Source: Kribbella jiaozuonensis (GTDB lineage Bacteria > Actinomycetota > Actinomycetes > Propionibacteriales > Kribbellaceae). Taken from it: DNA of 64,000 nucleotides. The notes beneath the pieces are model-generated. The model worked only from the letters and a program-made list of their open reading frames with translations, had not been told where the DNA came from and searched no databases. Each line of letters opens with the position of its first letter. Position 1 is the first letter of the stretch. The position numbers were made by a program, and so were the translations under genes. The stretch lies in contig NZ_SZPZ01000002.1 of assembly GCF_005233875.1 (NCBI RefSeq), positions 1,364,001-1,428,000 on the forward strand, in the 5' to 3' direction. This document shows positions 3,873-55,530 of the stretch, piece after piece.

Positions 3873-6038
3873 TCAGCGCACAACCAAGGTTGCCGTCAGC
3901 TGGTGGGTCAGTGTCCCGCTGGTGGCGGTGATCTTGAGGGTGGAGGTCCCGCGGGCTGTCCCGGAGGTGGTCCGGATCTTCAGCACCGCGTTGCCAGAGG
4001 TGGTCACCGGGTTACCCGTCCACGTCGGTGTGGCGTTCGATGGCTGTCCGGACACCTTGAGCGTCACAGATCCCGTGAATCCGCCCGTGGGCGAGACGTT
4101 CACCGTGTACGTCGCAGTCTGCCCACGAGTCACCGTGCTCGAGGCCGGGCTGACTGCGATTCCGAAGTCCGGCCGGTTGACGACCAGCGTCAGGGTGACC
4201 TGATGGCTGAGTGACCCGCTGGAACCCGAGACCGTGAAGGTATAGGTGCCGGCGGGAGCTGATCCTGACGTCACCACATTGACCTGCGCGCTGCCGCTGC
4301 CGTGCAGGACGGCAGGAGTGACGGCGACCGTGCCGACGGCGGACGAAAGACCGCCGGCGGCCAGCGACACATCGCCGGCGAAGCCGTTCGCCGGGCTGAC
4401 CGCGATCGTGTACGCCGTCGACGCGCCTGCCGCAACAGTGCGGGTGAGCGGCGTCGAGGAGAGACCGAAGTCCGGCGGCGGCACGACAGTCAGCGTCGCG
4501 GTCGCGCTATGGCTGATCGCGCCGCTCGAACCTGTCACAACCAGCGCGGTCGAACCCGCGGTCCCGGGAGCGACCACGGTCAGCGTCGACGTCCCCGCAG
4601 CTGCCACCACCTGCGGATCGAAGCTCCCCGGCAGGCCACTGACCGACAGCGCGACGTCGCCGCTGAAGCCGCCACTCGCACTGACCGTCACGTTGTACGT
4701 CGCCGTTCCGCCGGGAAGCACATTGACCGTGGCAGGCGACACGACCACCCCGAAGTCCGGCGTACTACGGAGCCAGTTGTACGACGCCAGCACGTCGAGG
4801 CGACCGTAGCCGTAGTCGTTGTCGGCTCCGGCCGGCCCGAGATCCGCCGCACCGGCCTGCAGCGCGGACTGCTGCCTATCGGCGGACACACCCGGCGACG
4901 CCTGCAGCAGCAACGCGAGCGCACCGGCGACGTGCGGAGCGGCCAGCGACGTGCCCGAGACGTCGAGGTAGCCGCCGTACAGGTCAGTAGTCCGGATGTC
5001 CGTGCCTGGGGCAACCAGTTGCGGGTACGCCGACTGGGTGCAGGCCGACGGGCCGCGGCTGGAGTACGGATCGATCAGGCCGGTGTCGTCAACCGAACCG
5101 ACCGCCAATGCCTCCGGGTTGTTCGCCGGACTGGCCGAGCTACCGGCCACCGGACCGTAGTTGCCAGCAGCAAAGACCGGCAGGATCCCTGCCGCGCGGA
5201 GGTTGCGTAGGTCGGGCTGGAACTCCAGGCTGCAAGTTCCGGCGCTCATCGTCCAGGAGTTGTTCACCACGTTCGGCGCGTCCGCTGTCGCCGGGTTCCC
5301 GTCCGGGTCGAGCAGCCACTGGTACCCGAGATGGATCGCGGTCGACGACGCCTGTCCGCGATCGTTGAACATCTTGACGGCGATCCACCGCGCGTCCGGC
5401 GCGATGCCGATCGACGAGCCGCCGCCGTCACCGCCGACCATCACCCCCATCGTCTGCGTTCCGTGACCGGTCAGATCGACCGGTGCCGACGGGTGCTGAC
5501 CGTTCGGGTCGTACCAACTGTTGGTCCCACCACGCCACCGGGAAGCCAACTCGGGGTGGCTGATATCCACGCCGGTGTCCATCGATGCGACGACCATGCC
5601 CTGGCCGCGATACCCGAGATCCCACATCGCCGGTGCGTTCACCTGGGCCACGTTCGGCTCGACGGCGCTTGCAACCTCTGCAGTCGGAGCCTGGATCGTC
5701 GTACTCGGCCGCACCTCGCGCACCTCGGGCCGCCGCGCCAGTTCCGCGGCGACACTCGAGCGGACCCGGGCACCGATCGCGTTGGTGATCCACAGCGGCA
5801 CCACAGACGTCACGAGGCCCTGCTTCCGCCGTACGGCGAGCAGATCCCGGGCACCGCGCTGTGTGGCATCGGCGTGGTCCCGCAACGCCCTCTCGAGCCG
5901 GCCGGGTGCGGCGGCCGCAGGCGTCACCTGCGACTTCAGCACGACGATGACGTCGACGAAGGGATCGGCCGGTGGCGCGGCGACTGCCGATCCGGGCACC
6001 ACGAGCGCAAGAACCACGCTGAACGCAAAGGACCTCAT
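3873..6038 (-). CDS. Secreted subtilisin-like serine protease with three Ig-like repeats
   Basis: 721 residues from the ATG at 6038, which overlaps the stop of the CopCD gene (ATGA) and follows GGGAGGTCGACG. Signal peptide MRSFAFSVVLALVVPGSAVA, an inhibitor_I9-like propeptide, then the S8 catalytic domain with Asp in SMDTGVD, His in LTGHGTQTMGV, oxyanion Asn in FAAGN and Ser in SGTSLAAPHVAGAL. The C-terminal ~260 residues are three tandem Ig-like domains, each opening with PDFG-(x)3-SP and ending in TLxVV. These resemble bacterial pre-peptidase/adhesion-type beta domains and probably hold substrate or cell wall. Translational coupling to CopCD puts an extracellular protease in a copper operon; maturation of the secreted oxidases nearby is a possible role, by inference. 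Confidence 0.88.
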   Translation of the reverse strand: MRSFAFSVVLALVVPGSAVAAPPADPFVDVIVVLKSQVTPAAAAPGRLERALRDHADATQRGARDLLAVRRKQGLVTSVVPLWITNAIGARVRSSVAAELARRPEVREVRPSTTIQAPTAEVASAVEPNVAQVNAPAMWDLGYRGQGMVVASMDTGVDISHPELASRWRGGTNSWYDPNGQHPSAPVDLTGHGTQTMGVMVGGDGGGSSIGIAPDARWIAVKMFNDRGQASSTAIHLGYQWLLDPDGNPATADAPNVVNNSWTMSAGTCSLEFQPDLRNLRAAGILPVFAAGNYGPVAGSSASPANNPEALAVGSVDDTGLIDPYSSRGPSACTQSAYPQLVAPGTDIRTTDLYGGYLDVSGTSLAAPHVAGALALLLQASPGVSADRQQSALQAGAADLGPAGADNDYGYGRLDVLASYNWLRSTPDFGVVVSPATVNVLPGGTATYNVTVSASGGFSGDVALSVSGLPGSFDPQVVAAAGTSTLTVVAPGTAGSTALVVTGSSGAISHSATATLTVVPPPDFGLSSTPLTRTVAAGASTAYTIAVSPANGFAGDVSLAAGGLSSAVGTVAVTPAVLHGSGSAQVNVVTSGSAPAGTYTFTVSGSSGSLSHQVTLTLVVNRPDFGIAVSPASSTVTRGQTATYTVNVSPTGGFTGSVTLKVSGQPSNATPTWTGNPVTTSGNAVLKIRTTSGTARGTSTLKITATSGTLTHQLTATLVVR

Positions 6039-48180: not shown

Positions 48181-49415
48181 GCTACGCGATCTCGGGGGAG
48201 TGCTGCTCGGACGCGAGTTGTGTCGCGGTGTGTCCGATGAACAGCATTCATCCGTCGCCGGGTGAGCCGGGGTTCGGGACCGGGGCAAGTCTGTTCATCG
48301 ATCCGCGGACGTGTATCGACTGCGGGGCGTGTGCCGACATCTGTCCGGTCGACGCTGCTCAACCGGCCGATCAGGCTGCGGCTGAGGATATCGAGCGGAA
48401 CGCGGCGTACTTCGCCGAGCAGGAGCCGCTGGACGCGATGGACCTCGACAGTTGGGGCGAGCCGTCGTACCAGGTCTGGGGCGGTGGACCGCGACGAGTG
48501 CTGGTCGTCGGAGCGGGGCCGGCCGGGATGTACGCGACGCGGGAGTTGTTGCTGCGGACAACGGCCGAGGTGACGCTGGTCGATCGGCTGGAGCAGGTCG
48601 GCGGCTTGGTGCGGTACGGCGTTGCGCCGGATCACCCGAGCACGAAGCAGATCATCAGCAGCTTCGAACGGATTGTCCGGCATGAGCGAGTGCGCTGGCT
48701 GCCGGGGACCGATGCAGCTGAGCTGCCGGATCAGTTCGACGCGGTGATTCATGCTGTCGGCGCTCGCCGGAGTCGGCGGTTGGGGATCGACGGCGAGGAC
48801 GCTGCCTGCACTGCCGAGGATTTTGTTGCCTGGTACAACGGTCGGCCGGATGCGCAGTTGCTGGTCGAGCTGGTCGGGCCGCGGGCGGTCATCGTGGGCA
48901 ACGGGAACGTCGCGCTGGATGTGACGCGGATTCTGCTGAGTGATGCGGACCGGCTGGACGTGCCCGCGGAGGTCAGGCGGACGCTCGCGGCGAGCGGGGT
49001 GAAGGAGGTTGTGCTGCTCGGGCGGCGTGGGCCGGAGGAGGCGGCGTACACGGAGTCGGCTTTGCGGGAGTTGATGGCCGCGGCTGGTGATCGGGTCGAG
49101 CTGCGGCATCATGCGCGGCCGACGGCGTGGACGTCCGAGGGGCTGACGCTGGACGACGGTACGACGATTGCTGCGGGCAACCTGTTTACCGCGATCGGGT
49201 TCGAGGGGACGCCGGTCGATGGGCTGCCGTTCGACCCGGAGCGGGGGATCGTGCCGAACGTCCGCGGCGCCGTCGTCGGCCGGCCCGGGCACTACGTGGC
49301 GGGCTGGATCAAACGCGGCGCGCGCGGCGGCATCGGCGTGAACAAGGCCTGTGCGCAGGAGACCGTGATGACGCTGGTCAGTTCGTCCAGGGCCCTAGTT
49401 TCTCCGGGTTCCTGA
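48177..49415 (+). CDS. Ferredoxin-ferredoxin-NADP reductase fusion (FprB-like)
   Basis: 412 residues, GTG overlapping the previous stop. An N-terminal 2x[4Fe-4S]-type ferredoxin domain (CCSDASCVAVCPMNSIHP and CIDCGACADICPVDAA) is followed by an FAD/NAD(P) reductase of the adrenodoxin-reductase type (RVLVVGAGPAGMYATREL, GGLVRYGVAPDHPSTK, AVIVGNGNVALDVTRIL, YVAGWIKRGARGGIG). Moves electrons from NADPH to the ferredoxin module. As second gene of the operon it is the obvious reductase for the AurF-type oxygenase. Its end overlaps the convergent sigma-factor gene by 38 bases. Confidence 0.93.
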   Translation: MSYAISGECCSDASCVAVCPMNSIHPSPGEPGFGTGASLFIDPRTCIDCGACADICPVDAAQPADQAAAEDIERNAAYFAEQEPLDAMDLDSWGEPSYQVWGGGPRRVLVVGAGPAGMYATRELLLRTTAEVTLVDRLEQVGGLVRYGVAPDHPSTKQIISSFERIVRHERVRWLPGTDAAELPDQFDAVIHAVGARRSRRLGIDGEDAACTAEDFVAWYNGRPDAQLLVELVGPRAVIVGNGNVALDVTRILLSDADRLDVPAEVRRTLAASGVKEVVLLGRRGPEEAAYTESALRELMAAAGDRVELRHHARPTAWTSEGLTLDDGTTIAAGNLFTAIGFEGTPVDGLPFDPERGIVPNVRGAVVGRPGHYVAGWIKRGARGGIGVNKACAQETVMTLVSSSRALVSPGS

Positions 49416-50277
49416 TCGCCCAGATGTTCGTGATGTGATCGTCGTCCACGTCGAAGGCGATCACGGTCTCGATCACACCCTCGAACTGGATCACCAGACC
49501 CGGCTGGCCGTTGACCGTGCGCTCGATGAGCTCACGTCCGAGCATGAACACCGGAAGGTTGGCGAAGTACTCCGCGACGTCGGTGCCACCGTGCACCGGC
49601 TCGAGGGCCGCCGTCACGATGCCACCGCCGTCCGCGACCGCGGTGACGTCGGGGTCGAGCAGGCTGACGAGCTTGGCGATGTCGGTCGCCTCCCAGGCCT
49701 GCTTGAACTCCCGGATGAGCTCGGCCCGATGTGCCGACGGCGCGGCCGGGAGCTGTGCGTCGCGGATCCGCCGACGCGCCGAGGAGGCGAGCTGCCGGCA
49801 GGCCGCCGGAGTACGCCCGACGATCTCGGCCACCTCAGGGAACGGGTACCGGAAGACGTCGTGCAGGATGAACGCGACCCGCTCGGCCGGCGTCATCGCG
49901 TCGAGTACGACGAGGAACGCCATGTTGACCGACTCGTCCAGCGTCACCCGGTCCGCTGGATCAGCGGTACCGCCGGGCTGACCGGTGTGCCACTCGGTGC
50001 TCTCCGGGAGCGGCTCCGGGATCCACTCACCGACGTACCGCTCGCGCCTGGACCGGGCGGAGCGCAGCAGATCGAGGCAGATCCGGCTGGCGACCTTGGT
50101 CAGCCACGCGGCCGGGTTGTCGATCGCCTGCTGCTCGGCCGGCGTCATCGCGTACCAGCGCGCGTACGTCTCCTGGACCACGTCCTCCGCGTCCGCCAGC
50201 GACCCGAGCAGCCGGTAGGCGAGGTTGATCAGCTGCCGCCGCTCGCTCATGATCGCGCTCAGGCCGGGCTCGCTCAT
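49378..50277 (-). CDS. ECF41-type RNA polymerase sigma factor (SigJ-like)
   Basis: 299 residues from ATG 50277, after GAGGAGAGGACTGAC. Sigma region 2 (RRQLINLAYRLLGSLADAEDVVQETYARWY) and region 4 (LDAMTPAERVAFILHDVFRYPFPEVAEIVGRTPAACRQLASSARRRI) are followed by a SnoaL-like C-terminal domain of ~100 residues ending IWAIRNPEKLGPW. That extension is the mark of the ECF41 group, where it both helps and restrains the sigma factor in place of an anti-sigma factor. The usual COE partner (carboxymuconolactone decarboxylase, oxidoreductase or epimerase) is absent; a stand-alone SnoaL gene faces it. Confidence 0.93.
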   Translation of the reverse strand: MSEPGLSAIMSERRQLINLAYRLLGSLADAEDVVQETYARWYAMTPAEQQAIDNPAAWLTKVASRICLDLLRSARSRRERYVGEWIPEPLPESTEWHTGQPGGTADPADRVTLDESVNMAFLVVLDAMTPAERVAFILHDVFRYPFPEVAEIVGRTPAACRQLASSARRRIRDAQLPAAPSAHRAELIREFKQAWEATDIAKLVSLLDPDVTAVADGGGIVTAALEPVHGGTDVAEYFANLPVFMLGRELIERTVNGQPGLVIQFEGVIETVIAFDVDDDHITNIWAIRNPEKLGPWTN

Positions 50278-50306
50278 GTCAGTCCTCTCCTCGTTCATAC
50301 CCGTAC

Positions 50307-50333
50307 GACGGAACTGCCCGGCGAACTGTGAGG
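50307..50333 (-). promoter_or_regulatory. Candidate ECF41 promoter for the sigma-factor gene
   Basis: Read on the minus strand: CCTCACA, 16 bases, CGTC, then 29 bases to the ATG at 50277. The remembered ECF41 consensus is TGTCACA and CGTC. Five of seven -35 bases and all four -10 bases match. Autoregulation is typical of the group. Confidence 0.5.
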
Positions 50334-50360
50334 TCTGACAGTCCGCGCTGCTGTCTCGTC
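50334..50360 (+). promoter_or_regulatory. Candidate ECF41 promoter for the SnoaL gene
   Basis: TCTGACA, 16 bases, CGTC, ending nine bases before the ATG at 50370. Same spacing and -10 as the divergent candidate, with weaker -35 agreement. If real, the mRNA would be nearly leaderless. Confidence 0.4.
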
Positions 50361-50369
50361 GTACCGATC

Positions 50370-50819
50370 ATGACCACAAACAACACAAACAACGCTGTAG
50401 CCGAAGTAGATATCCGTGAGCGTATCGAGAGCCTGCTGAACGCCGTCCGGACCGGTGACGTGGAGACGCTGAGGACGATCTTCGCCCCGAACATCGTCTC
50501 GTTCGACATCGAGGCGCCGCTGCGGCACCTCGGCGCGGAGAAGAAGATGGCGAACTGGGCGCAGGTCTTCACCGTGTTCCAGCTGCCGCTCGAGTACGAG
50601 ACCCGCGACCTGACCGTGCTCGTCGATGGCAGCCTCGCGGTCGTCTACAGCCTCAACCACATGAACGCGAGCATGGGCAACGGCGGCAAGATCGACTACT
50701 GGCTGCGCTGGACCTCGGCGTGGCAGAAGCTCGACGGCGAGTGGAAGATCGTGCACGACCAGGTATCGGTGCCGATCTACTTCCCGGAGGGTCGTCCGGC
50801 GATGGACCTCATGCCCTGA
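50370..50819 (+). CDS. SnoaL/NTF2-like protein
   Basis: 149 residues from ATG 50370. NTF2 fold: IRERIESLLNAVRTGDVETLRTIFAPNIVSFD, then LEYETRDLTVLVDGSLAVVYSLNHM and WTSAWQKLDGEWKIVHDQVSVPIYF. Proteins of this subgroup are annotated as SnoaL-like or ketosteroid-isomerase-like, with no assigned substrate. The odd N-terminus MTTNNTNNAVAE is probably flexible. Divergent from the ECF41 sigma gene, whose own C-terminal domain has the same fold. The stop overlaps the kinase gene by eleven bases. Confidence 0.83.
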   Translation: MTTNNTNNAVAEVDIRERIESLLNAVRTGDVETLRTIFAPNIVSFDIEAPLRHLGAEKKMANWAQVFTVFQLPLEYETRDLTVLVDGSLAVVYSLNHMNASMGNGGKIDYWLRWTSAWQKLDGEWKIVHDQVSVPIYFPEGRPAMDLMP

Positions 50820-51612
50820 GCCAGGCCGGCCACGGCCGGAGCTCACCGGCGGCATCGGCCAGCGCAGTGAGTGCACGCTGGGCCGTCGGATGCGGGTCCA
50901 GGAGGAAGCGGAGGCCGTCGGGCAGCTCGCCACAGGCCTCGGCGAGGGTCCGGCCGAGGCTGTAGAGGTCCATCTCGGCGGACACCGGCTCGCACGCCTC
51001 CTGTGCGGGGGACGCGTACCCCTCGGTCCCCACCGGATGACCAGCCGGCTGCTCGCTCCCGATCCGACGGGTGCTGCCGAAGTCGATCAGTACCGGCCGA
51101 CTGTCCCGCAGTACGACGTTCTCGGGCTTCACATCCAGGTGGGCCAGCTCGCGGGAGTGCAGGGCCATGAGGGCGGGGAGCAGTTGGGCGCCGAGATTCG
51201 CCGTCTCGGGGACGGTGAGGAGCCCGTTGTCCTCGAGTTCGTCGGCGAGCGATGGGCCGTCGACGTACTCGACGAGGATGTGGGGGATCGGGTCGTCGGT
51301 GCCGTCGGTGCCGTCGGTGCCGTCGGTGCCGTCGGCGAGCAGGCGTGGGAGGGCCGGGTGCAGGTTGCCGGCGAGCGCGGCGGTCTCGCGGCGGAGGGAC
51401 TTGACCGCGCGGGGGTGATGGATCTGGTGTGGGCGTGCGGCCTTGAGTACGGCGGGCGCCCAGAGCCGGACCGACCAGACCAGCCAGGTCTCGCACCGGT
51501 GGCCGACGCCGAGGCGCTCGATGGCGAAGGTCCCGCCGGGCAGCTCGCAGCCTTCGGCCCAGTCCCAGACGGCCAGCCCGTCCACATCGTCAGTCGCGGT
51601 ATCGACAAGCAT
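50809..51612 (-). CDS. Small Ser/Thr protein kinase encoded beside the RS-repeat peptide
   Basis: 267 residues, kinase domain only. Visible catalytic residues: K57 (PAVLKAARP), E76 (LRRETAAL), H158-L-D160 with K162 and N165 (LAHLDVKPENVVL), D177-F-G (LIDFGSTR), and a degenerate APE region (YASPAQE). The glycine loop is weak (IERLGVGHRCETWLV). All residues needed for phosphotransfer are present. Residues 94-107 are an acidic repeat (DGTDGTDGTDGTDD), coded by a 9-base DNA repeat and placed in the N-lobe before the hinge. ATG 51612 follows GGAGACCGACC. Third gene of the exporter-peptide-kinase operon; I infer that it phosphorylates the serines of the RS peptide or a cell-surface partner. Confidence 0.85.
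   Translation of the reverse strand: MLVDTATDDVDGLAVWDWAEGCELPGGTFAIERLGVGHRCETWLVWSVRLWAPAVLKAARPHQIHHPRAVKSLRRETAALAGNLHPALPRLLADGTDGTDGTDGTDDPIPHILVEYVDGPSLADELEDNGLLTVPETANLGAQLLPALMALHSRELAHLDVKPENVVLRDSRPVLIDFGSTRRIGSEQPAGHPVGTEGYASPAQEACEPVSAEMDLYSLGRTLAEACGELPDGLRFLLDPHPTAQRALTALADAAGELRPWPAWLRA
51295..51330. repeat. Four tandem copies of a 9-base unit inside the kinase gene
   Basis: GTCGGTGCC repeated four times without error, with a partial fifth copy after it. Read on the minus strand it codes Gly-Thr-Asp units. Exact repetition points to recent slippage; copy number may differ between strains and would lengthen or shorten the acidic loop of the kinase. Confidence 0.95.
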
Positions 51613-51638
51613 GGTCGGTCTCCTATAAAAGAGGTGAA

Positions 51639-51670
51639 GCCTGCCGCCGGGATGCGCCCCGGCGGCAGGC
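51639..51670 (-). terminator. Strong hairpin between RS-peptide and kinase genes (attenuator-like)
   Basis: A perfect 13-base stem, GCCTGCCGCCGGG with CCCGGCGGCAGGC, and a six-base loop. On the minus strand it is followed by TTCACCTCTTTTAT and then by the kinase ribosome site. A stem this strong plus a nearby T-rich stretch would stop or slow part of the transcription, giving more peptide than kinase message. Confidence 0.75.
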
Positions 51671-51677
51671 TGGTGGG

Positions 51678-51770
51678 TCAGCCGCGCGAGCGGCTGCGGG
51701 AACGGCTACGGCTGCGCGAACGGGACCGGCTACGGGACCGTCCGTGGTGCATGACGGGCTTGATACGCAT
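51678..51770 (-). CDS. 30-residue Arg-Ser repeat peptide
   Basis: Sequence plan: ten-residue leader MRIKPVMHHG, then nine Arg-Ser dipeptides, then Arg-Gly. ATG 51770 has a near-ideal ribosome site (AAGGAGGTGAATCCC). Arg codons vary (CGG, CGT, CGC) and Ser codons vary (TCC, AGC, TCG) from unit to unit, so the repeat is kept at protein level and is not simple DNA slippage. The gene lies five bases after the exporter gene and 65 before the kinase gene, on the same strand. RS repeats are known from eukaryotic SR proteins, where kinases phosphorylate each serine. I know of no bacterial family like this. Export, phosphorylation or nucleic-acid binding are all inferences. Confidence 0.8.
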   Translation of the reverse strand: MRIKPVMHHGRSRSRSRSRSRSRSRSRSRG

Positions 51771-51775
51771 GGGAT

Positions 51776-53485
51776 TCACCTCCTTCCGGCGAGGTCGTGG
51801 TCGAGAGTGACGACCCGGTCGGCGATCGCCGCCAGGTCGCGATCGTGGGTGACCATCAGCACCGTGCGGCGCGACGGTCCGGTGGTCATGGCCCGGATGG
51901 CCTGGATCACGGTGCCGGCCGAGACCGGGTCGAGCGAGGCGGTGGGCTCGTCGAGCAGCACCATCGGCGCGGGCGAGACCGCGGCCCGGGCGAGCGCGAC
52001 CCGGCGGCGCTGACCGCCGGAGAGCCGTACGCCGCCTTCGCCGAGCGGAGTGTCGTAGCCGAACGGCAGCCGGTCGGCGAACTCGTCCACCAGCGCGGTC
52101 CGGCCGGCCGCGACGACGCCGGCCCGGGTCGCGTTCTGGTTGCCAAAGGCAATGTTTTCGGCGACCGTTGCGTCCAGCAACCACGGGTCCTGCGGGACGA
52201 ACGCGAACCGGTCGCGCAGGCTGCGCTGGTCGCAGTCGCGGAGATCCACGCCGTCGATCAGGATCCGCCCGGCGTCGACGTCGTACAGGCGGAGGAGCAG
52301 GTGGAGCGTGGTGCTCTTGCCGATTCCGCTCGGACCGAGCAGGCACGCGGTCTCGCCGGCGGTGATGTCGAGGTCGAAGTGGTCGAGGACGGGTCGCCCG
52401 GGTTCGTAGCCGAACGACACCTGCTCGAAGCGGACGCCGGAGCGCAGCCGCGGAGCCGGGCGGGCGTCGTACCGATCCTCGACAGCCTCGTCGCAGTCGA
52501 GGACCTCGCGGACCCGGACCGCGCTGGCGCCGGCCTTGGCGAGTACGACGGACAGCCGGGTCAGGCCGCGGACGGGGGAGTAGAGGTCGCGGAGGTACGC
52601 CAGTACGACGAGGAGCTCGCCGACGGACAGGGAACCGGTCAGGACGTGGCGGCCGCCGACGACCAGGACGAGGGCGGTACCGATCGCGAGGACGATATCG
52701 GCCATCGGGGTCCAGCGGGCGTCGACGTCGATGGCACGGAGCTCGACGTCGAGGACGGCGCGGTTGCGGGTGCCGAAGATCGCGGCGGCGCGGTCGATCC
52801 GGCCGAACGCCTGCACAGCGCGGACGTTGCGGAGCAGGTCGGTCGTTGCTCCGGCCAACCGTCCGGACTCGGTCCGGGCGGCGTGCTGCGCGGCGCGGAT
52901 CCTCCGGCGTTGGCGGACCGCGAGTACGGCGAGGACCGGGGCGACGGTGAGGCCGATGAGCGCGAGCTGCGGGTCGAAGGCAACGAGGAGGGCGAGTACG
53001 CCGGCCAGCATCACCGCATCGGGGAGGAAGGAGGTCGTCACCGCGACGACTGCGTCGAGCAGGCGGCCGACGTCGGTGGTTAGGCGCGATACAAGCTCAC
53101 CGCTCCGCATGCGGTCGTGCCAGCGGAGCGAGCGCGTCATCGTGCGCTGGAACATGTCCGCTCGAAGCGAGGCTCCGATGCGCTCCGCCGCACCTTCGAC
53201 CGTCCGCAGGCTAGCCATGTCGAGCAGCCCGACGACGGCCGACAGCAAGACGCTGGCGACAGCGGCAAGCACAAGCACCGCAACCGGGCTCGCCCAGATG
53301 CCCGAGCCCACGCCGGAGCCCGATGCGGTGGGCCGGAGGGCGTGGTCCACGGCCAGGGCGAGAGGCCACGGGCGGAGGAGAACCGCGCCGACTCGCAGGA
53401 CGACCAGGCCGGACGCGGCGGCGAGAGCGGGTAGCTCCGGTCGTGCGGCGGGCCCGGCGACTGCGAGCGACAGCGGAAGTTTCAT
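51776..53485 (-). CDS. ABC exporter, fused membrane and ATPase domains
   Basis: 569 residues from ATG 53485; a start further upstream would cover the operator. Six membrane helices (residues ~20-300, type I exporter layout) and an ATPase with Walker A LLGPSGIGKSTTLHLLL, Q loop FVPQDPWLLDATVAENI, signature RLSGGQRRRVALARA, Walker B MVLLDEPTASLD and H loop VTHDRDL. No peptidase C39 domain, so any leader removal would need another protease. It heads the operon with the RS peptide and kinase and is the natural candidate for peptide export. Confidence 0.9.
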   Translation of the reverse strand: MKLPLSLAVAGPAARPELPALAAASGLVVLRVGAVLLRPWPLALAVDHALRPTASGSGVGSGIWASPVAVLVLAAVASVLLSAVVGLLDMASLRTVEGAAERIGASLRADMFQRTMTRSLRWHDRMRSGELVSRLTTDVGRLLDAVVAVTTSFLPDAVMLAGVLALLVAFDPQLALIGLTVAPVLAVLAVRQRRRIRAAQHAARTESGRLAGATTDLLRNVRAVQAFGRIDRAAAIFGTRNRAVLDVELRAIDVDARWTPMADIVLAIGTALVLVVGGRHVLTGSLSVGELLVVLAYLRDLYSPVRGLTRLSVVLAKAGASAVRVREVLDCDEAVEDRYDARPAPRLRSGVRFEQVSFGYEPGRPVLDHFDLDITAGETACLLGPSGIGKSTTLHLLLRLYDVDAGRILIDGVDLRDCDQRSLRDRFAFVPQDPWLLDATVAENIAFGNQNATRAGVVAAGRTALVDEFADRLPFGYDTPLGEGGVRLSGGQRRRVALARAAVSPAPMVLLDEPTASLDPVSAGTVIQAIRAMTTGPSRRTVLMVTHDRDLAAIADRVVTLDHDLAGRR

Positions 53486-53531
53486 GACGACAACGCTCGC
53501 CGTCGGCTGGTCGGCTTCGGTAGTGCACCTT

Positions 53532-53543
53532 GGTACTAGGACC
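53532..53543. promoter_or_regulatory. Operator-like dyad GGTACTAGGACC before the exporter operon
   Basis: One mismatch from the palindrome GGTACTAGTACC found at 55530. The flank extends the likeness: TTGGTACTAGGACC here against TTGGTACTAGTACC on the other strand there. It lies in the 105-base gap between exporter and sensor kinase genes, so could control both. Confidence 0.6.
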
Positions 53544-53590
53544 GTTGTCGGGCTGCCTTCCGGCGGTTGGCGCACCATACGATCCCAGGC

Positions 53591-54910
53591 ATGGGCAGAC
53601 TCCGACGCGCGGACCGCGGGCCAATCTCAACGGTTGGCCTGCTGGTGCGCTTCACAGCAGCCGGGTTGATCGTGCTGCTTTCGCTGGCTGCGCTGATCGC
53701 GTTCGTCGCGCGGCAGGCCGGCATCGAGCAGGCGACCGAATCCGCGCGGCAGGTGACCTACGTAACCGCCCGCGGCGTGGTCGAGCCGCGCCTGGACGCA
53801 GCCGTCATCGCCGGCCAGCCCGCAGCGCTCACAGCATTCGACCAAGCGATGCGCAAATACGTCCTGCAAGGCTCGCTCGTCCGCGTGAAGCTGTGGAACG
53901 CCGACGGCCGCATCGTGTACTCCGACGAGCCGCGCCTGATCGGTCAGCAGTTCCCGCTCGGACCCGAGGAGCAGGAAGCACTCCAGCGCCAAGGCAGCAG
54001 CGCCTCCGAGGTCAGCGACCTGAGCCGCCCCGAGAACAAGTTCGAGATCCCGTACAAGAAGCTGCTCGAGGTGTACGTCGGCGTCCGCGGCACGAACGGC
54101 GAACCGATGCTGTTCGAGGCGTACTTCGAGTACCAGGCCGTCACCGAAGCGGGACAGGCCGCCTGGCGCCGATTCGCGCCACCGTCGCTCGGCGCGTTGC
54201 TCGTGCTGGAGCTGGTGCAGATCCCGTTCGCCTGGTCGCTGGCTCGACGGGTGCAACGGCAGCAGCGGGATCGCGAGCGGTTGCTGCAGCATGCGGTGGA
54301 CGCGTCGGACGCCGAGCGTCGGCGGATCGCGGGGGAGTTGCACGACGGGGTCGTACAGGAGTTGACCGGGTTGAACTACGCGCTGGACGCGATGCGGCTC
54401 GGGCATCCGACGGAAGGCCAGCGGGCGGAGTTGATCGCGGACAGCGCGAGCAGGCTGCGGGGGAGTATCGGGTCGCTGCGGTCGTTGCTGGTCGACATCT
54501 ACCCGCCGAACCTTGCCGAAGAGGGCCTGACGTCGGCATTGGCCGAGTTGGCGGCCGGGCTGGAGCGCGCGGGGATCGAAGTACGGCTGGAGACCGATGG
54601 TGCGGAGGAGTTGCCGCCGGCGGTCGCGGCGTTGTTGTTCCGTACGGCGCAGGAGGTCGTGCGGAACGTCGCCGCGCACAGCGGAGCCAGCGAGGTACTC
54701 ATCAAGGCCGGCCGTAGTGACGGGCATGGCGTGCTGATCGTGGACGATGACGGGCGTGGATTCGACGAGTCGCGGCTCGGGGAGCGCAGCAGCAACGGGC
54801 ACCTCGGGCTACGCTCGATCGGCGACCTGCTCGCGGAGTCGGGTGGCACGCTGACGGTCCGGGCCGCGCCCGGTCAGGGGACACGGGTGGAAGCCGAGGT
54901 ACCGATGTGA
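53591..54910 (+). CDS. NarL-type sensor histidine kinase
   Basis: 439 residues from ATG 53591. Helix one (VGLLVRFTAAGLIVLLSLAALIAFV), an extracytoplasmic sensor domain of ~150 residues (dCache/single-Cache-like, with VRVKLWNADGRIVYSDEPRLIG), helix two (SLGALLVLELVQIPFAWSLA), then HisKA_3 with the phospho-His in ERRRIAGELHDGVVQELTG and HATPase_c (AQEVVRNVAAHSGAS, DDDGRGFDE, GHLGLRSIGDLL). The sensor domain suggests detection of a small molecule or cell-envelope signal. Stop overlaps the regulator start. Confidence 0.92.
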   Translation: MGRLRRADRGPISTVGLLVRFTAAGLIVLLSLAALIAFVARQAGIEQATESARQVTYVTARGVVEPRLDAAVIAGQPAALTAFDQAMRKYVLQGSLVRVKLWNADGRIVYSDEPRLIGQQFPLGPEEQEALQRQGSSASEVSDLSRPENKFEIPYKKLLEVYVGVRGTNGEPMLFEAYFEYQAVTEAGQAAWRRFAPPSLGALLVLELVQIPFAWSLARRVQRQQRDRERLLQHAVDASDAERRRIAGELHDGVVQELTGLNYALDAMRLGHPTEGQRAELIADSASRLRGSIGSLRSLLVDIYPPNLAEEGLTSALAELAAGLERAGIEVRLETDGAEELPPAVAALLFRTAQEVVRNVAAHSGASEVLIKAGRSDGHGVLIVDDDGRGFDESRLGERSSNGHLGLRSIGDLLAESGGTLTVRAAPGQGTRVEAEVPM

Positions 54911-55530
54911 TCCGGGTGTTGATTGCGGACGATCATGCGATCGTCCGCACCGGGCTGTCCCAGCTGCTCGGTACTGCGGATGACATCGAGCTCGTCGGCG
55001 CTGCGGGCGACGGGGCCGAGGCGGCGACGATGGCGGCGGAGTTGCGGCCGGACGTCGTACTGATGGATCTGTCGATGCCGGGCACCGACGGGATCTCGGC
55101 GACGGAGCGGATCGTGGCGGCGTCGCCGGAGGTGCATGTGCTGGTGCTGACGTCGTTCAGCGATCAGGCGCGCATTCTGGACGCGCTGCAGGCCGGCGCT
55201 GAGGGGTATCTGCTGAAGCACAGCGAGCCTGAGGTGATCCTGGCGGGTATCCGGGAGATCGTGTCGGGTGGTTCGCCGCTGGATCCGAAGGCGGCGCGGG
55301 TATTGCTGACGAACCGGCGGTCGCCGGGTCCTGAGACCAAGCTGACCGACCGCGAGCAGGAGGTGCTCGACATGGTCGGCGCCGGCCTCCCGAACAAGAC
55401 GATCGCCCGACGCCTGGGGATCAGCGAGCGCACGGTCAAGGCGCACCTCACCAACGTCTACCAGCGTCTGGGCGTCACCGACCGCACCCAAGCGGCCCTC
55501 TGGGCCCAGCGCCAACAGCGCGACAACTAG
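54907..55530 (+). CDS. NarL/LuxR-family response regulator
   Basis: 207 residues, GTG overlapping the kinase stop. Receiver domain RVLIADDHAIVRTGLSQLL with phosphorylated Asp in VVLMDLSMPGTDG and Lys in GYLLKHSEPE; LuxR helix-turn-helix LTDREQEVLDMVGAGLPNKTIARRLGISERTVKAHLTNVYQRL. Binding sites for the family are short inverted repeats, and one (GGTACTAGTACC) begins at the last base of this gene. Confidence 0.93.
   Translation: MIRVLIADDHAIVRTGLSQLLGTADDIELVGAAGDGAEAATMAAELRPDVVLMDLSMPGTDGISATERIVAASPEVHVLVLTSFSDQARILDALQAGAEGYLLKHSEPEVILAGIREIVSGGSPLDPKAARVLLTNRRSPGPETKLTDREQEVLDMVGAGLPNKTIARRLGISERTVKAHLTNVYQRLGVTDRTQAALWAQRQQRDN

Follow-up and report, generated by a model that had tools for sequence, protein, structure and literature searches.

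The actinomycete Kribbella jiaozuonensis carries, between the genes for an ABC exporter and a Ser/Thr protein kinase, an open reading frame of 30 codons that includes nine consecutive Arg-Ser dipeptides. An earlier note on this DNA, made from the sequence alone, had pointed to the likeness of this repeat to the SR proteins of eukaryotes and had called a short, free RS peptide undescribed to its author's knowledge. Is this reading frame a gene, and what would a bacterium do with its product? Here, we describe a comparative analysis of the window, by which we mean the whole stretch of 64,000 nucleotides that was analysed (contig NZ_SZPZ01000002.1, positions 1,364,001 to 1,428,000), and of related loci in other genomes. 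The peptides matched no family in Pfam or NCBIfam, where two NCBIfam splicing-factor models scored far below cut-off, and the open-licence literature searched held no description of the RS peptide or its cassette, in keeping with the earlier note.

Results

The peptide gene and its translation signals

The gene occupies 51770..51678 of the minus strand, stop codon included, and encodes 30 amino acids of the plan MRIKPVMHHG(RS)9RG. Direct reading of the sequence places its ATG at 51770-51768 and its TGA at 51680-51678. The coordinates and the peptide plan had been given correctly before, the strand being left unstated; the opposite strand of the same interval translates as SAARAAAG... The good ribosome site that had been claimed is a Shine-Dalgarno sequence, AAGGAGGTGA, at 51785-51776, which includes the TGA stop codon (51778-51776) of the exporter reading frame, so that five bases separate the end of one frame from the start of the next. 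Since the Shine-Dalgarno sequence contains the exporter stop codon, translation of the peptide is probably coupled to that of the exporter. A GGAAGGRGGTGAA box is common to the peptide genes of relatives.

The codons of the window tract are mixed, CGG, CGT and CGC for Arg alternating with TCC, TCG and AGC for Ser. A degenerate (RS)6R codon pattern matched four times in the organism's own 8.66-Mb genome and not once in a reversed control, and four is the number of overlapping registers expected from a single (RS)9R tract. The mixed codons and the retention of the peptide in 24 further genomes, next to homologues of the exporter and kinase genes, rule out chance or a simple DNA repeat as the origin of the tract. 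Judged by these comparisons, 51678-51770 is a real peptide gene. A search for free RS tracts in 395 genomes with the degenerate codon pattern was too noisy to use.

The exporter and neighbouring genes

The exporter gene (53578..51776, minus strand) encodes fused membrane and ATPase domains in 600 amino acids counted from the first ATG, and the true start may be the ATG at about 53485. Its matches in Pfam and NCBIfam are confined to ABC_membrane and ABC_tran, with no C39 peptidase domain. The window peptide has no signal peptide and no double-glycine motif before the repeat, and the cassette includes no dedicated leader protease. Towards its end the exporter gene, like the peptide tract described below, is quiet at synonymous sites, less clearly so (compared in L018-L022).

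Divergently from the exporter, on the plus strand, lie the genes for a sensor histidine kinase of the HisKA_3 type (53567..54910) and for its partner, a NarL-type response regulator (54907..55530). Exporter, peptide, kinase, histidine kinase and response regulator stand together in all nine genomes of the genus that bear the kinase. The two-component pair is conserved with the cassette in the window's genus and in family f2, and was not found with it in the other lineages examined. In the window's genus this divergent system probably controls peptide production.

At 49378-50819 a SigJ-type sigma factor with a SnoaL-like tail is encoded beside a SnoaL-fold protein, an arrangement that adjoins the cassette in five relatives. 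The sigJ, SnoaL and ferredoxin-reductase genes were considered as parts of the cassette and excluded, because they do not follow it into L023-L025.

Inheritance of the cassette

The distribution of the cassette was determined with kinase-only queries, which are unbiased as to the presence of the peptide. This search returned 17 loci, spread over two classes of the phylum and no fewer than four families, with a peptide gene at every one of them (16 clear, one loose); the earlier note had proposed a look beside homologous kinase and exporter genes as the check on its claim, and the claim came through it. The kinase is present in 9 of the 38 genomes of the window's genus, each time with the peptide between exporter and kinase. 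A peptide search of the remaining 29 genomes, which is blind to divergent peptides (those of G006 and G018, for example), gave no additional gene. Its sole extra match, L017:1501-1578 in genome G011, is nothing but the hexanucleotide CAGTCG repeated, which one frame translates as (RS)n, and has no gene context; it was rejected as a look-alike at the DNA level, in no plausible gene and in a genome without the RS kinase.

Four loci came from two other families of the order, with kinase identities of 46-52%, and at all four the peptide gene lies between those of exporter and kinase. The peptides are MVKKAIRKHRTRTRSRSRSRSRSHG, MKAFHLGIKGLLSKRSHSRSRSRSRSRSRSRSRG, MIIIRIKGLVADRKHGRSRSRSRSRSYSRSRSRY and a pair at locus L119. 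There, upstream of the kinase, two RS-peptide genes, MIIRIKRLAADRKHG(RS)8 and MKIIRIKALVADRKHG(RS)8, stand in tandem some 180 bases from each other; each has a separate ribosome site, and the N-termini of their products differ slightly. One further Nocardioidaceae locus encodes MSTTHSSLIRGLAEAYPAQTSQRRTRTRTRGRTRTGHRRGHGRGHR between exporter and kinase. In another class of the phylum, all three loci place the peptide (MSRGRGRGRRVRGGHKVFSHHGGPSASSMSRSRTRTRTRTRG, a near copy of MSRGRGRGRRVRGGHKVFSHHGGPSASSMSRSRTRTRTRTRG, and a looser MSSAFRSGGVKGLAQVHAAGCGWRTSTTSRSCSSRSQSCD) directly between an exporter, 45-48% identical in its main part, and a kinase, 42-47% identical. The peptide at L196 is merely loosely rich in Arg, Ser, Thr and Cys. 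Beside the intact cassette of L025, positions 5100-6031 hold pieces of a second response regulator and a kinase C-terminus, apparently a decayed duplicate.

A scan of named genomes with the generic kinase motif HLDxKPxN found, among the matches listed, an adjacent full-length exporter at 8 of at least 80 kinase loci. All eight belong to Nocardioides (N. halotolerans, N. lacusdianchii, N. astragali, N. glacieisoli, N. cavernae and three others) and all have a peptide gene, here in the order peptide-exporter-kinase, with products of 44-52 amino acids such as MARSGILTALTPAVQARRGDSSSDDGRRRRRRRRRRNRSRSRSRSS. The trios seen thus number 25, of which 24 have a clear R-S/T repeat. This conservation of gene neighbourhood shows that exporter, R-S/T repeat peptide and stand-alone Hanks-type kinase are coinherited across great evolutionary distance, and that the peptide of the window, which had appeared as a lone oddity, is one member of an exporter/peptide/kinase cassette family.

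Selection on the peptide

The N-termini of the peptides vary between lineages, with motifs such as RIxPTM retained within the window's genus, and the repeat still alternates Arg with Ser or Thr. Thr stands in the place of Ser, with Arg kept, in RTRTRTRGRTRT of the Nocardioidaceae locus, in RTRTRTRTRG of the other class, in TGTRTRTRTRG of Nocardioides and in RTRTRSRSRS of the other families of the order, and this exchange in several lineages preserves the hydroxyl. When nine RS genes were compared, frame 1 proved to be 95% Arg or Ser and the other frames were all less uniform. Codon make-up goes by lineage, L024 and L025 using almost exclusively AGC and the window a mixture of TCN and AGC. That the R-S/T alternation stays while codons change and Ser gives way to Thr argues for selection on the peptide, and the comparison supports a more specific view, in which the selected feature would be the Arg-flanked hydroxyl. 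Cys occurs, among the peptides read, only in L024, L025 and L196, the first two belonging to the window's genus and ending in Cys.

The earlier note had reasoned that, because codons differ from repeat to repeat within the gene, selection keeps the amino acids. Selection on the frame and on the RS plan is borne out, but the within-gene argument is insufficient: the codons of close relatives are near-frozen, and the support comes from the deep comparison instead. In a comparison of the six closest genomes, synonymous variation touches 2 of the 19 invariant Arg/Ser codons of the tract, versus 64 of 94 in the kinase and ABC genes (p = 4e-6). Codons so nearly frozen suggest that a second, nucleotide-level constraint may be present, possibly an RNA element overlapping the tract and the 3' end of the exporter gene.

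The hairpin after the peptide gene

Between the peptide stop and the kinase start, in a spacer of 65 bases, lies a GC-rich hairpin of 14 bp (51638..51671, minus strand; -40.1 kcal/mol, z = -6.0), which by its predicted fold resembles an attenuator or the end of an mRNA. A GC-rich hairpin follows the peptide gene at all 25 loci (22 folded together and three more). Over those 22, z ranges from -1.6 to -6.6, and at three loci, with values of about -2.1 or higher, the hairpin stands out only weakly from shuffled DNA of such high GC content. The hairpin sequences are unrelated between lineages, and that of Nocardioides precedes the exporter gene. An Rfam search of the region returned no element. 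A small gene, a hairpin and then the gene for an enzyme or exporter is the usual plan of precursor-peptide operons, in which the peptide is made in excess of the enzyme; where such an excess is needed, a hairpin 3' of the peptide gene is to be expected.

The kinase and its relatives

The kinase gene (51612..50809, minus strand) encodes 267 amino acids, and its product is the proposed modifying enzyme. The kinase domain is alone in this length, with no PASTA, transmembrane or other domains by Pfam and NCBIfam. The catalytic residues are present (K57, the beta-3 Lys; E76, the alpha-C Glu; HLD160; N165; D177-x-G) and conserved in the aligned relatives, with the exception of L119, which lacks the Lys of KPxN (K162). 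By profile and by predicted fold (pLDDT 81) the protein is closest, among the matches listed, to PknB and PknG; its N-terminal lobe is distinct, with an unusual Gly-loop, LGVGHRCETWLVW, and an RPHQ motif. The acidity of the kinase was considered as a sign of a preference for basic substrates and set aside as not distinctive, because the protein is no more acidic than its relatives and such a preference is therefore invisible from overall charge. A role in defence was likewise discarded, the PADLOC matches being generic kinase matches. At 51294-51335 the window's kinase gene has a 9-bp tandem repeat of 4.7 copies, encoding DGTDGTDGTDGTD, where relatives have a single unit; by this comparison the repeat is a recent expansion inside the kinase domain.

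In a maximum-likelihood tree, which leaves out the three kinases of the other class, 14 RS/RT kinases and the eight Nocardioides kinases form one clade with support of 96/82. A sister clade is common in Nocardioidaceae (a match at E <= 1e-36 in 169 of 342 genomes), and its kinases are not paired with exporters. At 30 of 32 loci their genes lie directly 3' of a gene for a secreted SRD/TRD-rich protein, an arrangement seen at none of 11 loci of more distant kinases. The partner protein (L157-L191, L121) is 125-240 amino acids long, with acidic and SRD/TRD-rich stretches such as ...VSRDRDKSRGDKTRDWTRDGGDKTRDKTANNTNDRSRNDTRG, and in L161 and L162 it has long TRDPQTRD repeats; no Pfam or NCBIfam model matched these proteins. 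Because the sister clade, too, is paired with an SRD/TRD-rich partner, a gene partner rich in Arg-Ser/Thr seems to be characteristic of the kinase group at large.

Discussion

We consider it fairly probable, from the gene content and conservation described above, that this compact operon makes a repetitive basic peptide, phosphorylates it with its own PknB-like kinase and exports it. The short, variable N-terminus would serve as a docking or leader segment. The kinase would then phosphorylate Ser or Thr where Arg flanks it, at up to nine positions in the window's peptide, and full phosphorylation would turn a polycation of +12 into an acidic polyampholyte of about -6, which the exporter, having no peptidase domain, would secrete. 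RS tracts can be kinase substrates: SRPK1 phosphorylates every serine of the RS domain of the lamin B receptor, and Akt some of them (PMC4841541). In class III and IV lanthipeptide synthetases, precursor peptides are modified by kinase domains of the Hanks type (PMC10604976). As to purpose we can offer a guess, namely that phosphorylation keeps a cationic peptide that binds nucleic acids and membranes harmless within the cell, and that outside it the peptide, as such or dephosphorylated, serves as a peptide of the cell envelope or as an antimicrobial. The frozen synonymous sites of close relatives count against this model, which leaves that constraint unexplained. Other points against it are the unremarkable acidity of the kinase, the lack of a dedicated leader protease and of a double-glycine motif, the loose peptide of L196, and the absence of the two-component pair from the cassettes examined outside the window's genus and family f2.

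How does the cassette compare with known systems? Class III and IV lanthipeptide loci (LanKC, LanL) share with it a short precursor gene, a Hanks-type kinase activity and often an ABC exporter, but the RS kinase is a stand-alone domain, no lyase or LanC-like cyclase is encoded, Cys is not consistently present, and the regular R-S/T repeat is unlike a ring-forming core. Lasso peptides of the paeninodin type are phosphorylated on Ser by a dedicated HPr-kinase-like enzyme, and so offer another small peptide with a kinase of its own, phosphorylation of the RS peptide being our proposal; they differ in that the RS cassette lacks the B protease and the asparagine-synthetase-like C cyclase, that its kinase belongs to another fold class, and that the potential sites are many and not one. 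The absence of a lyase or cyclase from the cassette rules out either known system. C39-type bacteriocin exporters are unlike the window's exporter in having the peptidase, and their substrates unlike the window's peptide in having the double-glycine leader. Actinobacterial PknB and PknG have the same fold and are the nearest solved structures among the matches listed, whereas the RS kinases lack PASTA and transmembrane domains and their genes are paired with repeat peptides.

The resemblance to SR proteins, raised in the earlier note, holds for the sequence plan, an Arg-Ser dipeptide repeat, and in the SR pair as well a Ser kinase is matched to it. The RS peptides are free, of 25-52 amino acids and encoded beside an exporter, they have no RNA-recognition domain (no Pfam match), and the kinase is nearest to bacterial PknB, with SRPK absent among the matches listed and no homology shown. 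With RiPPs in general the cassette shares a ribosomal precursor gene linked to an exporter and a kinase, in 25 loci, and we infer a RiPP-like modifying role for the kinase. The cassette thus appears to work like a precursor-kinase-exporter pathway that lacks the defining features tested for lanthipeptides, lasso peptides and SR proteins. It could also be regarded simply as one more RiPP class.

The absence of a lyase or cyclase, the exchange of Ser and Thr, and the differing position of the unit with respect to exporter and kinase speak, in different ways, against three other readings: a regulatory kinase, dehydration and attenuation. The peptide might be secreted unmodified, with the kinase acting as a regulator of exporter, two-component system or immunity. 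Most bacterial Hanks kinases have regulatory roles, and the window's genus does have a two-component system in its cassette; but that pair is missing in lineages where kinase and peptide stay together, the exchange of Ser for Thr between Arg flanks fits a kinase substrate, and the sister kinases are likewise paired with S/T-R-rich proteins, not with exporters. We regard this reading as unlikely.

A rather doubtful case can be made for dehydration, in which an unlinked lyase would remove the phosphate added by the kinase and the exported product would be an (Arg-dehydroalanine)n peptide, with rings only in those members that contain Cys. Kinase domains take part in such dehydration in class III and IV synthetases (PMC10604976), there is a match between the RS kinase and the kinase region of LanL (E = 2e-16), and two relatives in the genus have the terminal Cys. 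The conserved cassette is nevertheless without lyase or cyclase, most of its peptides lack Cys, and the better matches of the kinase are of the PknB type, not LanL.

A short codon-biased reading frame followed by a strong hairpin, with synonymous sites frozen among close relatives, also recalls an attenuation leader: ribosomes stalling at Arg or Ser codons would control the hairpin and hence expression of the kinase, and the peptide itself would be functionless. This is quite improbable, as the Arg and Ser codons belong to several tRNAs and form lineage-dependent mixtures, not a run for one amino acid, Thr takes the place of Ser, the genus conserves N-terminal motifs such as RIxPTM, the Nocardioides peptide gene and hairpin precede the exporter and not the kinase, and the downstream genes encode a kinase or an exporter and never amino-acid synthesis. 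That the RS peptide is an intracellular pseudosubstrate or an RNA- or DNA-binding regulator, the exporter carrying other cargo, agrees with its lack of a signal peptide and with the binding of eukaryotic RS repeats to RNA and kinases, but is most improbable given that the exporter is a constant neighbour in all 25 trios and that the tandem copies of L119 and the hairpin suggest a bulk product.

We see about an even chance that the cassettes represent a new class of Actinomycetota natural products, secreted and multiply phosphorylated (Arg-Ser/Thr)n peptides, each made by its own stand-alone Hanks kinase and released through its own ABC exporter. If this is true, bacteria would have a parallel to SR proteins and SRPK that arose from PknB-like kinases, with sister kinases paired with secreted SRD/TRD-repeat proteins. 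To our knowledge, most bacterial Hanks kinases have natural substrates that are unknown or disputed; in these cassettes, a kinase is genetically linked to its likely substrate, the two are coinherited across classes, and the pairing is therefore directly testable with a peptide of 30 amino acids. Peptides of the RS type are short enough for standard gene callers to miss. If confirmed, they would form a class of peptides whose defining mark is repetitive phosphorylation and which escapes genome mining aimed at cyclases, radical enzymes or Cys-rich cores, and RS-repeat chemistry would have been reached independently in bacteria.
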